Source: Streptomyces antibioticus (GTDB taxonomy: Bacteria > Actinomycetota > Actinomycetes > Streptomycetales > Streptomycetaceae). From it: a DNA stretch of 64,000 nucleotides. The notes beneath the pieces are model-generated. The model was given only the letters and a program-made list of their open reading frames with translations, had not been told where the DNA came from and made no database searches. The position numbers were made by a program, and so were the translations under genes. Shown piece by piece: positions 7,329 to 13,106 of the stretch. The DNA is taken from the NCBI RefSeq assembly GCF_001514065.1, contig NZ_KQ948424.1, positions 1,026,994 to 1,090,993 on the forward strand, in the 5' to 3' direction. Position 1 is the first letter of the stretch. Each line of letters starts with the position of its first letter.

Positions 7329-7624
7329 GACCTGCGACTTCTCCGACCTCTCGGACTCCGGTTTGCCGACGTTCCTCCTCAGGGTAGGGCAGCTCACCCG
7401 GGCGACCGTGGGCTGAGGTGTGGTGGCATCTGCGAAACTGGGACCTGATACACACAGCTCGTACGGCCCGTGCTGTTCGACGGACGGCGAAGATCCTTGT
7501 GAGGATCCTGCGGACAGGTGTTTCAACGCACGTTTCGGCGGGCGGCCGTGGGGGAGGTCACTGACACGATGATCGGGTTGCGCGGCGGGGGCCACGCGTC
7601 CTAGAAAAGCAGTCGGGTGGAGAT
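7329..7624. other. Divergent intergenic region between hemL and the next gene
   Basis: About 300 bases that must hold the promoters of hemL (minus) and the 7625 gene (plus). A small hairpin, GATCCT-TGTG-AGGATC, lies at 7492-7507. I see no tRNA-like structure, recognisable riboswitch or convincing extra reading frame. Confidence 0.5.
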
Positions 7625-9340: not shown

Positions 9341-10873
9341 ATGAACGCCGACGCAGGACTCCGGGGGTCGTACTGGCTCGAGACCGCCCCGCCCGGCGAC
9401 CCCGCACCCCCGCCCGCCGGTGACCTCAGCGTCGACGTCGCCGTGATCGGCGGCGGCATGGCCGGGCTGAGCACGGCCTGGGAGCTGGTGAGGGAGGGCC
9501 GCGAGGTGGCCGTGCTGGAGGCCGGCCGGCTCGCCGCCGGGGTGACCGGCCGCACCACGGCCAAGCTGAGCGCCCTGCACACCCTCGTCTACGACCGGCT
9601 GCGCCGCACGCGCGGACCGGAGGGGGCGCGGCTGTACGCCCGTTCGCAGACGGAGGCGATCCGGCACGCCGCGGAGATCGTGGCGGAGCTGGGCGTCGAC
9701 TGCGACTGGGAGGAGGCGGCCGCGTTCACGTACGCCGAGGACGCGGACGGCGTCGCGGAGTTGCGGGCCGAGGCGGAAGCGGCGCGCGAGGCCGGCCTGG
9801 CGGCCTCCTTCGTCACCGACACCGAGCTGCCGTTCCCGGTGGCGGGCGCGGTCAAGGTGGTACGGCAGGCCCAGTTCCACCCCCGCAAGTACCTGCTGGC
9901 ACTCGCCGACGACCTGCGCAGGCGCGGCGGCACGGTGTACGAGGACACACGGGTCGTCGCCCTGACCGAGGGCGAGCCGTGCGTCCTGACGACCGACGCC
10001 GGGGTGACGGTGCGCGCCCATGACGTGGTCGTCGCCACCCACTACCCGGTGTTCGACCGGGCCCTGCTCTTCACCCGCCTCTCCCCCCGCCGCGAACTGG
10101 TCGTGGCCGGGACCGTCGACGCGAGCCGCGCCCCGCGCGACATGTACATCACGCCGGAGCAGAACACCCGCTCGGTGCGCAGCGCGCCGTACGGCGACGA
10201 CGACTCCGTACGGCTGCTGATCGTCACCGGTGAGCACTTCACGCCCGGCACCGCGGACGTCGACAAGCGCTTCGCGCGGCTCGCGGAGTGGGCCGACGAC
10301 CGCTTCCGCGGGCTGACCCTCACCCACCGCTGGGCGACCCAGGACAACGACTCCACCGACTCCGTGCCCCTCGTCGGCCCGCTCCACCAGGGCAGCGGGC
10401 ACACCTACGTGGCGACCGGCTTCGGCGGCTGGGGACTGAGCGGCGGCATCATGGCGGGCCGCCTGATCACCGACCTGATGGCCGGCCGCGAGGTCGCGTG
10501 GGCCGGCCTGTACGACCCGCGCCGCCTCGGCTCCGTCGTCCGCGAGGGCGTGTCCTTCCTCAAGCACCAGACGCAGGTCGCCCGGCACTTCGTCGGCGAC
10601 CGGCTGCCGCCCCGGTCGGGCCCGGCGCCGGAGGACCTCGCGCCCGGTGACGGCGCGGTGATGAGGGTGGGCGGCCACCGGTGTGCCGTGCACCGCGACG
10701 AGAGCGGACAGCTCCGAGCGGTCTCGGCGAACTGCACCCACCTCGGCTGCGTCGTGGGATTCAACCGCGCCGAACAGGCCTGGGAATGCCCGTGCCACGG
10801 CTCCCGGTTCGCCCCCGACGGCAGCATCCTCCAGGGGCCCGCGGTACGCCCGCTGGAACAGCGCGACCTCTGA
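9341..10873 (+). CDS. FAD-dependent oxidoreductase with C-terminal Rieske [2Fe-2S] domain
   Basis: A 510-residue two-domain redox enzyme. The N-terminal DAO/glycine-oxidase-like FAD domain (about 28-400) shows the dinucleotide motif VAVIGGGMAGLSTAWELV and ends in YVATGFGGWGLSGGI. The C-terminal Rieske domain (about 420-510) has CTHLGC and CPCHGS, giving two Cys and two His ligands. AGGAGG 5 bases before the ATG supports the start. The fusion is known in bacteria; the substrate is unknown. It opens a same-strand run with a small peptide, a methyltransferase, a CDGSH protein and a diiron-type oxidase, suggesting electron transfer in a shared process. Confidence 0.92.
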   Translation: MNADAGLRGSYWLETAPPGDPAPPPAGDLSVDVAVIGGGMAGLSTAWELVREGREVAVLEAGRLAAGVTGRTTAKLSALHTLVYDRLRRTRGPEGARLYARSQTEAIRHAAEIVAELGVDCDWEEAAAFTYAEDADGVAELRAEAEAAREAGLAASFVTDTELPFPVAGAVKVVRQAQFHPRKYLLALADDLRRRGGTVYEDTRVVALTEGEPCVLTTDAGVTVRAHDVVVATHYPVFDRALLFTRLSPRRELVVAGTVDASRAPRDMYITPEQNTRSVRSAPYGDDDSVRLLIVTGEHFTPGTADVDKRFARLAEWADDRFRGLTLTHRWATQDNDSTDSVPLVGPLHQGSGHTYVATGFGGWGLSGGIMAGRLITDLMAGREVAWAGLYDPRRLGSVVREGVSFLKHQTQVARHFVGDRLPPRSGPAPEDLAPGDGAVMRVGGHRCAVHRDESGQLRAVSANCTHLGCVVGFNRAEQAWECPCHGSRFAPDGSILQGPAVRPLEQRDL

Positions 10874-10950
10874 AGAACCACCGTTTCCCCGCGGCCCAGC
10901 AGGGCACTCGGCGGACAGTTCGACGAGACACAGAGAGAAGTTGAACCGCC

Positions 10951-11136
10951 GTGACCACGTCCACCGTCCAGAACGACACGACCACCCCCCTCCGGGTGGC
11001 GAAGACGGGCTGGCGAAAGGCTCGCACCGTACGCGACAAGGGCGTACGCACCTGCCTCTCCCCCGTCGACGACGGCACCCGCCCCTCCGCCACGGACCCC
11101 GGCGGCGAGGGCAACATCGTCCGCGGCGACGACTGA
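10951..11136 (+). CDS. Small 61-residue protein of unknown function
   Basis: An open frame from GTG at 10951 with nearly every third codon position G or C, as expected of a real Streptomyces gene. The product is basic in the middle (VAKTGWRKARTVRDKG), has one cysteine (VRTCLSPVDDG) and ends in an acidic, Gly-rich tail (GGEGNIVRGDD). It has no signal peptide or membrane segment. The ribosome binding site is weak (GAGAGAAG about 10 bases upstream). It lies between the Rieske oxidoreductase and the methyltransferase. It could be a substrate or accessory peptide for the enzymes around it, but that is conjecture. Confidence 0.55.
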   Translation: MTTSTVQNDTTTPLRVAKTGWRKARTVRDKGVRTCLSPVDDGTRPSATDPGGEGNIVRGDD

Positions 11137-11153
11137 CCCGAGACAGCCCCCAG

Positions 11154-11195
11154 CACCCGCACACCCTCACCCCCCACCCGCACACCCTCACCCCC
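11154..11195. repeat. Two perfect tandem 21-bp repeats
   Basis: A 21-base unit beginning CACCCGCACACCCTCA occurs twice head to tail without mismatch, in the short gap between the 61-residue gene and the methyltransferase gene. It could be replication slippage or a leader element. Confidence 0.8.
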
Positions 11196-11207
11196 ACCAG
11201 GACGCCC

Positions 11208-11894
11208 ATGCCCTCCGCCACCGTCGGCTGCCCCACCCCCGCCGACCCCCGCCGCTGCGTCGTCCCCCGGGGCGTGTACGCGCCGCAGGCCGACACCCGT
11301 CGCCTGCGGCGGGCGCTGCACCGGGAACCGATCACGGACCGGACGCACGTGCTGGACCTCGGCACCGGCAGCGGGGCGCTCGCGGTCGAGGCGGCCCGGC
11401 TCGGCGGCCGCGTCACCGCGGTCGACATCTCCTGGCGGGCGGTCGCGGCCGCCTGGCTCAACGGCGTGCTGAACGGCCAGAGCCTGCGCGTCCGCCACGG
11501 CGACCTCGCCTCGGCGGTCCCCGGCCGCCGCTTCCACCTGGTGCTCGCCAACCCGCCCTACGTCCCCGCCCCCGGCGCGGCCCCGCCCCGCGGCCCCGCC
11601 CGCGCCTGGGACGCCGGCCCGGACGGCCGGCTGCTGATCGACCGGGTCTGCGACTCCGCACCGGCGGTCCTGCACCCCACGGGCGCCCTGCTCCTCGTCC
11701 ACTCCCATCTGTGCGGCGTCGACGCCACCCTGGCCCGCCTCACCGAGGCCGGTCTGCGCGCGGAGGTCGTCGACCGCACCCGGCTGCCGTTCGGCCCGGT
11801 GCTGCGCTCCCGGCTCGGCTGGCTGCGCGAGCGAGGCCTGGTGAACGGCGAGACGACGGAGGAACTGGTGGTGATCCGTGGCCGCCGCAGCTGA
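11208..11894 (+). CDS. HemK/MTQ2-like class I SAM methyltransferase
   Basis: A 228-residue Rossmann-fold methyltransferase. SAM motif I is VLDLGTGSGALAVEAA near residue 48, the acidic ribose-binding residue is in VTAVDIS, and the catalytic motif is ANPPYVP near residue 115. NPPY is the mark of enzymes that methylate planar amide or amine nitrogens, including the glutamine methyltransferases PrmC and MTQ2. It lacks PrmC's N-terminal helical domain and so resembles the shorter MTQ2/HemK2 form. The target is unknown. The ATG has AGGA upstream, and the 3' end overlaps the CDGSH gene by 17 bases. Confidence 0.87.
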   Translation: MPSATVGCPTPADPRRCVVPRGVYAPQADTRRLRRALHREPITDRTHVLDLGTGSGALAVEAARLGGRVTAVDISWRAVAAAWLNGVLNGQSLRVRHGDLASAVPGRRFHLVLANPPYVPAPGAAPPRGPARAWDAGPDGRLLIDRVCDSAPAVLHPTGALLLVHSHLCGVDATLARLTEAGLRAEVVDRTRLPFGPVLRSRLGWLRERGLVNGETTEELVVIRGRRS

Positions 11895-12111
11895 CCGCCC
11901 CCGCCGCATACGCGTCCAGCGCGACGGGCCCCTGCTGATCGAGGGACCGGTCGAAGTGGTCGACGAGCACGGCGAGGTGACGGTCTCCGACCGTTTCGAG
12001 GTCGCGGTCTGCACCTGCCGCCGCAGCCGCCTGTACCCGTGGTGCGACACCAGCCACCGCCGCCGCGAGCGCCGCACCGGCACAGCGGCCGACGAAGGCG
12101 GCCGGACATGA
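11878..12111 (+). CDS. CDGSH-type iron-sulfur protein
   Basis: A 77-residue soluble protein with one CDGSH [2Fe-2S] motif. The ligands Cys45, Cys47, Cys56 and His60 have exactly the C-x-C-x8-C-x3-H spacing of mitoNEET proteins (CTCRRSRLYPWCDTSH). The usual Gly after Cys-Asp is Thr here. It probably carries electrons or a labile cluster. It starts at GTG 11878 inside the end of the methyltransferase gene, and its stop overlaps the start of the oxidase gene in an ATGA arrangement, so three genes are translationally linked. Confidence 0.88.
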   Translation: MAAAADRPRRIRVQRDGPLLIEGPVEVVDEHGEVTVSDRFEVAVCTCRRSRLYPWCDTSHRRRERRTGTAADEGGRT

Positions 12112-13106
12112 CCAGCCCCTCCCGGCACCGGCCCCCACAGCTCCCCGCCCCCCGCGGCCCGCTCTCCGCCGCGGTACGCGCCGCCCTCCTGGGCGCACCG
12201 CCCCCGCAGAACATCCCGGAGGACTCCCCCGCCTACGGCGACGACCTCCAACTCGCCCTCTACACCCTTTACGAACTGCACTACCGCGGCTTCCGCGACG
12301 TCCCCGACACCCTGGAGTGGGACAGCGCCCTGCTCGCCTGCCGCGCCGCCCTCGAGGACCGCTTCCTGACGGCCCTGCGCGAGGACGTACCGACCACCGG
12401 CACGACCGCCACCGCCGCCCTCGACGAGCTCCAGGTCGAACCGACCGCCGACCCCGACGGCACGAGCGTGTCGTTCTTCCTGCGCGACGAGGGCACCCTC
12501 GACCAACTGCGCGAGTACGCGGCCCTGCGCTCGCTCTACCACCTCAAGGAGGCCGACCCGCACGCCTGGGTCATCCCCCGGCTGCACGGGCGGGCCAAGG
12601 CGGGGATGGTCGCGGTGGAGTTCGACGAGTTCGGCGCGGGCCGCCCCGACGAGATCCACGCGGAACTGTTCGCCGACCTGATGACGGACCTGAAGCTGGA
12701 GACGGCGTACGGCCACTACGTCGACGCGGCCCCGGCCGAGGCGCTCGCCACCGTCAACCTGATGAGCCTGTTCGGTCTGCACCGGGCGCTGCGCGGCGCG
12801 CTGGTCGGCCACTTCGCCGCCGTGGAGGTGACCTCGTCCCCCGGCTCCCGCCGCCTCGCCGAGGCACTGCGCCGGGTGGGGGCGGGCCCGGCGGCCGTAC
12901 GGTTCTACACCGAGCACGTCGAGGCCGACGCCGTGCACGAGCAGGTCGTACGGCAGGACGTCGTCGCCGGTCTCCTGGAGAGCGAGCCGGAGCTGGACGC
13001 CGACGTGGTGTTCGGCGTCCGCGCGACGACGTACCTGGAAGAACGCCTGGCCGCCAGGCTGCTGGGAGCCTGGCGGCAGGAGGCCACCGCACTGCGCGGC
13101 CCCTGA
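12108..13106 (+). CDS. Iron-containing redox enzyme, heme-oxygenase-like diiron oxidase type
   Basis: A 332-residue all-helical protein of the iron-containing redox enzyme family, related to heme-oxygenase-fold diiron oxidases (HDOs) such as UndA and SznF. Candidate metal ligands are Glu56 and His58 in YELHYRG, acidic residues around VEFDEFGAG (171-176) with His184, Glu240, and a clear H-x3-D-x2-H motif at His270, Asp274 and His277. The N-terminal 30 residues are Pro-rich. Known HDOs oxidise amines, fatty acids or amino acids; the substrate here cannot be read. The ATG overlaps the CDGSH stop codon. Confidence 0.83.
   Translation: MTSPSRHRPPQLPAPRGPLSAAVRAALLGAPPPQNIPEDSPAYGDDLQLALYTLYELHYRGFRDVPDTLEWDSALLACRAALEDRFLTALREDVPTTGTTATAALDELQVEPTADPDGTSVSFFLRDEGTLDQLREYAALRSLYHLKEADPHAWVIPRLHGRAKAGMVAVEFDEFGAGRPDEIHAELFADLMTDLKLETAYGHYVDAAPAEALATVNLMSLFGLHRALRGALVGHFAAVEVTSSPGSRRLAEALRRVGAGPAAVRFYTEHVEADAVHEQVVRQDVVAGLLESEPELDADVVFGVRATTYLEERLAARLLGAWRQEATALRGP

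Follow-up and report, generated by a model that had tools for sequence, protein, structure and literature searches.

Three adjacent genes in a 64,000-nucleotide stretch of the Streptomyces antibioticus genome (NZ_KQ948424.1, positions 1,026,994 to 1,090,993; the whole stretch is called the window here) encode a HemK2/MTQ2-like class I methyltransferase (MT), a [2Fe-2S] protein of the CDGSH/NEET type and a haem-oxygenase-like diiron oxidase (HDO). The explanation that we favour, with a probability of about 0.5, is that they form a stress-controlled N-oxygenation module of Actinomycetota, in which the NEET protein would be the reductant and the MT would act on the same substrate as the HDO. The pair made up of HDO and NEET protein is actinobacteria-wide; two large families have the MT in addition, and further lineages have other partners. 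The enrichment of a SigB/SigF-type promoter motif before the HDO, CDGSH and MT units is new here.

Conservation of the core genes and the metal-site signature of the oxidase

Gene neighbourhoods were compared at 191 HDO loci, 59 from Streptomycetaceae, 52 from the phylum and 80 from named actinobacteria. The Streptomycetaceae set (61 loci, the window and 60 regions) was hand-picked for spread over genera from CDGSH matches, which were obtained in 119 of 150 genomes of the family, so that the presence of CDGSH in this set is by construction; an HDO gene is present in 59 of the 61, the exceptions being L075 and L077. The phylum loci, some of them cut by contig ends, were selected among the HDO matches that 62 of 396 Actinomycetota genomes gave, and the named loci are the top 80 of at least 590 that matched in a scan with a wider HDO alignment. 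The core genes were sought with hidden Markov models; some neighbours come from a simple composition-based open reading frame (ORF) caller, which misses short genes.

MT, CDGSH and HDO lie within 6 kb in 53/59 Streptomycetaceae HDO loci. The conservation in actinobacteria that a preliminary description of the window had suggested is thereby borne out, and the core genes are indeed neighbours in other genomes. In the two sets chosen by HDO, a CDGSH gene lies within 6 kb of the oxidase gene in 31/52 phylum and 71/80 named loci, and an MT gene in 18/52 and 19/80, respectively. The order is variable: among the 59 Streptomycetaceae loci, 21 have MT, CDGSH and HDO in this order on one strand, 12 have HDO, MT and CDGSH on one strand, and 18 have the HDO convergent to CDGSH and MT, an arrangement also found in 11 of the phylum loci. 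Closeness that is kept while the order changes argues for a shared function and not for one frozen operon. The overlaps in the window (17 bases between MT and CDGSH, ATGA between CDGSH and HDO) had been taken to imply a fixed stoichiometry, a reading that the 18 convergent loci do not support. On a tree of the HDOs (189 rows, with states counted on the 163 rows with long flanks), the neighbourhood changes 18 times for MT, 6 for CDGSH, 25 for a GCS2 carboxylate-amine ligase and 18 for a GT2-like gene.

The core genes are also found on plasmids. The mobilizable Streptomyces plasmid p65_CHABEC (L312, NZ_CP071045.1, 225280-236254) carries MT, CDGSH and HDO flanked on both sides by a SigB/SigF/SigG sigma-factor gene, with GAF-ANTAR and STAS genes nearby; the 58-aa gene preceding its MT is not of the window's peptide family. 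On a 62-kb plasmid of Curtobacterium, HDO and CDGSH overlap by 4 bases and form a pair to which no MT is adjacent. Three loci are probably decayed or partial copies: L071, with the HDO in two frames and the MT in two pieces; L077, an MT/CDGSH remnant without HDO; and L075, MT-CDGSH without HDO.

The HDO of the window (332 aa) scores 192.4 bits against Haem_oxygenas_2 (PF14518; cut-off 28.9), and its predicted structure (pLDDT 92.6) matches those of HrmI, SznF, RohS, FlcD, CADD, BesC and UndA. Among solved structures, it is closest to those of the N-oxygenases HrmI, SznF and RohS, whose fold it shares over nearly the full length at about 20% identity. Residues E148, E174, H184, E240, H270, D274 and H277 align with all seven iron ligands of SznF at a constant offset of 41, that is, at identical spacing, and they are invariant in the sequence alignment of 34 homologues. 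The diiron site that the preliminary description had thought probable is therefore represented, at the level of sequence, by a complete seven-residue signature. The resemblance has its bounds: the C-terminal cupin domain characteristic of SznF was not found, PF14518 being the sole family over cut-off, so that the window protein consists of the HDO domain only. Moreover, SznF, HrmI and RohS belong to natural-product pathways, as do most of the dozen or so characterised HDOs according to excerpts of an HDO review, whereas the window gene is in no recognisable natural-product cluster and is paired with a NEET gene. By analogy with these enzymes, we predict that the HDO performs N-oxygenation.

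The CDGSH protein is a clear family member (zf-CDGSH, 59.7 bits, cut-off 29.5), although the signature in the preliminary description is not literal: the motif reads C-x-C-x8-P-x-C-D-T-S-H, with the three Cys and one His kept. This CDTSH variant occurs in 71/91 motif-bearing loci of the Streptomycetaceae and phylum sets, and outside Streptomycetaceae all such loci are in one family (f3), which we take to be mycobacterial. In the host genome (99.98% complete), zf-CDGSH and PF14518 have one match each, both at this locus. The MT passes the profiles MTS (56.3 bits, cut-off 23) and TIGR00537 HemK2/MTQ2 (106.1, cut-off 87).

All five genes of the preliminary description are real, lie on the plus strand at 9341-13106 with their coordinates confirmed (Table 1), and belong to the families named there by profile scores; no family match was found for the peptide in the profile scan. 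As a five-gene cassette they hold up in part: the last three are a conserved unit, which few genomes combine with the FAD/Rieske gene and the peptide.

Table 1. Genes and promoter-like motif of the locus (window coordinates)
Feature	Position	Strand	Remark
FAD-dependent oxidoreductase with C-terminal Rieske domain	9341..10873	+	DAO and Rieske above cut-off; local companion
SigB/SigF-type promoter-like motif GTTT-N15-GGGCA	10883..10906	+	44 bases before the peptide start codon
61-aa peptide, Streptomyces family, C-terminal NIVRG(E/D)D	10951..11136	+	local companion
HemK2/MTQ2-like class I methyltransferase (MT), NPPY motif	11208..11894	+	core; start ATG 11208
CDGSH/NEET-type [2Fe-2S] protein, variant CDTSH	11878..12111	+	core; start GTG 11878
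Haem-oxygenase-like diiron oxidase (HDO), SznF-like ligand set	12108..13106	+	core; start ATG 12108

A stress-type promoter motif and the presumed M. smegmatis counterparts

Within 300 bases upstream of the first genes of the units, GTTT-N13-17-GGG(T/C)A was found at 41/191 loci, the window included (40 if the window's peptide, added as a first gene, is left out). Each of the 79 other permutations of the motif letters was found at 19 loci at most (median of all 80, 1.5), and the motif occurs on the reverse strand of the same sequences at 8 loci; several motif forms had been tried before this permutation test. With 200 bases upstream, it occurs in 49/311 such sequences at core units versus 39/1102 before other ORFs of the Streptomycetaceae and phylum sets, with a Fisher p of 1e-12 that overstates the evidence because the loci are related. 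The stricter form GTTT-N-GGGTA(C/T) is rare (1, 4 and 1 loci in the three sets), so that it is on GGG(T/C)A that the promoter claim depends; a looser form is found at 67/191 loci, with 27 for its reverse-strand control. The motif precedes both convergent units in L125, L127, L128, L132 and L172, and both HDO and CDGSH in L194, L195, L197, L198 and L253. Judged from these sequences, the core module is probably under general-stress control. The window's own copy is one base off the published GGGTA. The only other strict match in the window is a GTTT-N17-GGGTA at 7361-7386 on the plus strand.

The published consensus is that of Mycobacterium smegmatis SigF, GTTT-N(14-19)-GGGTA (PMC4694148). In the sigF mutant of that species, reported log2 decreases in exponential/stationary phase are 6.17/5.69 for MSMEG_1771, a putative methylase, 5.91/6.43 for MSMEG_1772 and 5.98/4.09 for MSMEG_1773; MSMEG_1771 and the next gene are placed under one SigF promoter, and MSMEG_1773 under its own (PMC4694148). 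We presume that MSMEG_1771-1773 are the orthologues of the core genes, since the gene order of locus L126 (L-lysine 6-transaminase, 724.3 bits; UsfY, 98.9 bits, slightly short of its cut-off at 100; on the opposite strand, a CsbD-type gene; MT; CDGSH; convergent HDO) fits that reported for MSMEG_1764 (lysine aminotransferase), 1769 (UsfY) and 1770-1773. The published MSMEG_1771 promoter had no match in 297 genomes, so that the link to M. smegmatis is one of synteny and not of protein comparison. The arrangement also differs, with a convergent HDO in M. smegmatis and a co-directional one in the window. In M. smegmatis taken through cycles of spray drying, the cluster MSMEG_1766-1802 is listed among the changed genes (PMC5445863). 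By analogy, these SigF and spray-drying data, together with those on DtpC, a desiccation factor of Acinetobacter, point to a stress role for such genes.

Proposed function and alternatives

In the reaction that we propose, the HDO would bind two irons through its three His and four carboxylates (3H/4C) and, with O2, would oxidise the nitrogen of an amine, amide or guanidine group in a small substrate that probably derives from an amino acid. The NEET protein, which is co-inherited with the HDO, would supply electrons one at a time and so bring the diferric centre back to the diferrous state between turnovers. The MT, where present, would N-methylate the substrate of the HDO, which other lineages would build or decorate with a GCS2 ligase or a GT2-like enzyme. 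SigB/SigF-type promoters would turn the unit on in stress. That an N-methyltransferase and an HDO should share a substrate has a precedent in SznF, which acts on N-methylated arginine. A more specific version, to which we lend less credence, makes the NEET protein the dedicated redox partner of a clade of 3H/4C HDO N-oxygenases that extends across the actinobacteria; the pair, with the MT or a carboxylate-amine ligase, would then make an N-oxygenated protectant (a hydroxylamine, hydroxamate, nitroso or nitro compound) in the general stress response, mycobacteria included.

Several observations weigh against an N-oxygenation module. In the phylum set, 19/52 loci have neither MT nor CDGSH within 6 kb of the HDO, although some of these lie close to contig ends. 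The MT, GCS2 and GT2-like neighbours are inconstant, changing 18, 25 and 18 times over the HDO tree, and pairwise tests on this tree gave no significant sign that partner genes are gained or lost jointly. The tested motif form was not found upstream in 150/191 loci, nor upstream of the p65_CHABEC operon, which stands between two sigma-factor genes. In addition, HrmI, the nearest structure, is classed as 3H/3C in the excerpted HDO review; N-oxygenation is thus possible without the seventh ligand, whose presence is no proof of it.

Two alternatives are unlikely to about the same degree. In the first, the HDO would be a protective oxidase that makes no dedicated metabolite and, in stress, uses electrons of the NEET protein to consume O2, peroxide or another reactive species, the MT being separate. 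DtpC may work in this way: this HDO-domain protein of Acinetobacter baumannii, likened to ours by its description, is tied to stress survival, keeps peroxide in check in dried cells and depends on its predicted ligands, although it is encoded in an operon with katE and six ligands are described for it (PMC13232832). The stress-type promoter motif at our loci and the presence of the presumed M. smegmatis counterparts in the cluster changed by spray drying (PMC5445863) are consistent with such a role. On the other hand, the nearest HDO structures are those of substrate-specific N-oxygenases, and the recurrence of MT, GCS2 and GT2-like genes as neighbours is suggestive of a pathway.

The second alternative keeps the N-oxygenation module and changes the task of the NEET protein, which would donate iron or a cluster to load a labile diiron site. 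The diiron sites of many HDOs are labile according to the excerpted review, and the tight HDO-CDGSH pair stands alone on the Curtobacterium plasmid. We prefer the role of predicted electron donor, by analogy with mitoNEET, which passes electrons from reduced flavin to acceptors (PMC9490426), and with MboB, since MboA needs a dedicated [2Fe-2S] flavoprotein partner (PMC13185094). In both MboAB and the window, an HDO is coupled with a [2Fe-2S] protein; MboB, however, is a flavin-[2Fe-2S] reductase and not a NEET protein, and MboA is a 3H/3C acetylenase. MboAB has been described as possibly the first dedicated pair of an HDO and a redox partner (PMC13185094), and no description of an HDO-NEET pairing was found among the matches listed, in titles and abstract openings of open-licence PMC texts. 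If the conserved HDO-NEET pair is what we propose, it would assign a defined task to bacterial NEET proteins and, in a major phylum, a role in stress to HDOs, and three strongly SigF-dependent genes annotated as methylase or conserved hypothetical would become testable enzymes.

It is improbable that all five genes form one pathway with the FAD/Rieske protein and the peptide as working parts: all five are together also in L267, with parts in L259, L260, L261 and L262, and the peptide copies there have an upstream GTTT-N-GGG(A/C)A like the window's (found with 1/13 of the other copies), but FAD/Rieske genes lie near 7/191 HDO loci, and the peptide gene, often located elsewhere, has core genes next to it in 3 of the 20 homologue loci retrieved. 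Least probable of all is that the MT modifies a macromolecule in stress (e.g., a translation-factor glutamine, as PrmC/Mtq2 do), with the NEET protein as its small partner and the HDO as a co-regulated neighbour only: the MT model is nearest to N6AMT1, PrmC and Mtq2, and an MT is directly upstream, on the same strand, of 65/71 CDTSH genes versus 7/93 others in all three sets, a count confounded by ancestry, but a full-length PrmC (242 bits, cut-off 199.1) encoded elsewhere in the genome makes a housekeeping release-factor methyltransferase unlikely, and HDO-CDGSH pairs without MT are common.

Other neighbours and local companions

GCS2 ligases of the YbdK type lie within 6 kb of the HDO in 12/59 Streptomycetaceae, 6/52 phylum and 23/80 named loci, and in Solirubrobacterales the order is often MT and CDGSH on one strand, with GCS2 and HDO between them on the other. 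From 43 matches (several weak) in 13 genomes, about 107 Mb in all, we infer a chance rate of about 0.5%. In a phylogeny of 54 GCS2 proteins, the 28 encoded within 500 bases of an HDO require 7 label changes (shuffled mean, 18.3), at least 6 of them on supported branches, so that ligases of several branches lie beside HDOs; the tree, which had 11 background rows, does not separate gain from loss. All three GCS2 proteins tested pass TIGR02050 YbdK. Their identification as EgtA was set aside as weak, two scoring 21.7 and 24.7 bits with a cut-off of 370.8 and the third not being listed.

A weakly GT2-like gene is found near the HDO in 11/52 phylum and 26/80 named loci; the single protein tested reaches 19.3 bits against Glyco_transf_21, below the cut-off of 21.7. 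In seven loci (L054, L070 and L085-L089), the HDO is preceded on its own strand, at a distance of 38-68 bases, by a DDAH-like hydrolase gene, which could hint at an arginine-type substrate there; as a local feature, it was not retained as a pathway step.

The FAD/Rieske protein of the window scores 163.9 bits for DAO (cut-off 27.9) and 55.7 for Rieske (cut-off 20.3). Such a gene was found within 6 kb of the HDO in 4/59, 1/52 and 2/80 loci of the three sets, the window included, and we rejected it both as a general electron source and as the part of the system that the preliminary description had made of it. Homologues of the peptide (about 60 aa, pattern ETGW...RTC(V/L)PAV...NIVRG(E/D)D) were found in 21/81 Streptomyces genomes; from its few contacts with core genes, it was rejected as an obligate partner. 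A cluster of PAS/GAF-type proteins lies near the peptide in 13 of the 20 homologue loci (e.g., L266, L268, L270 and L271).

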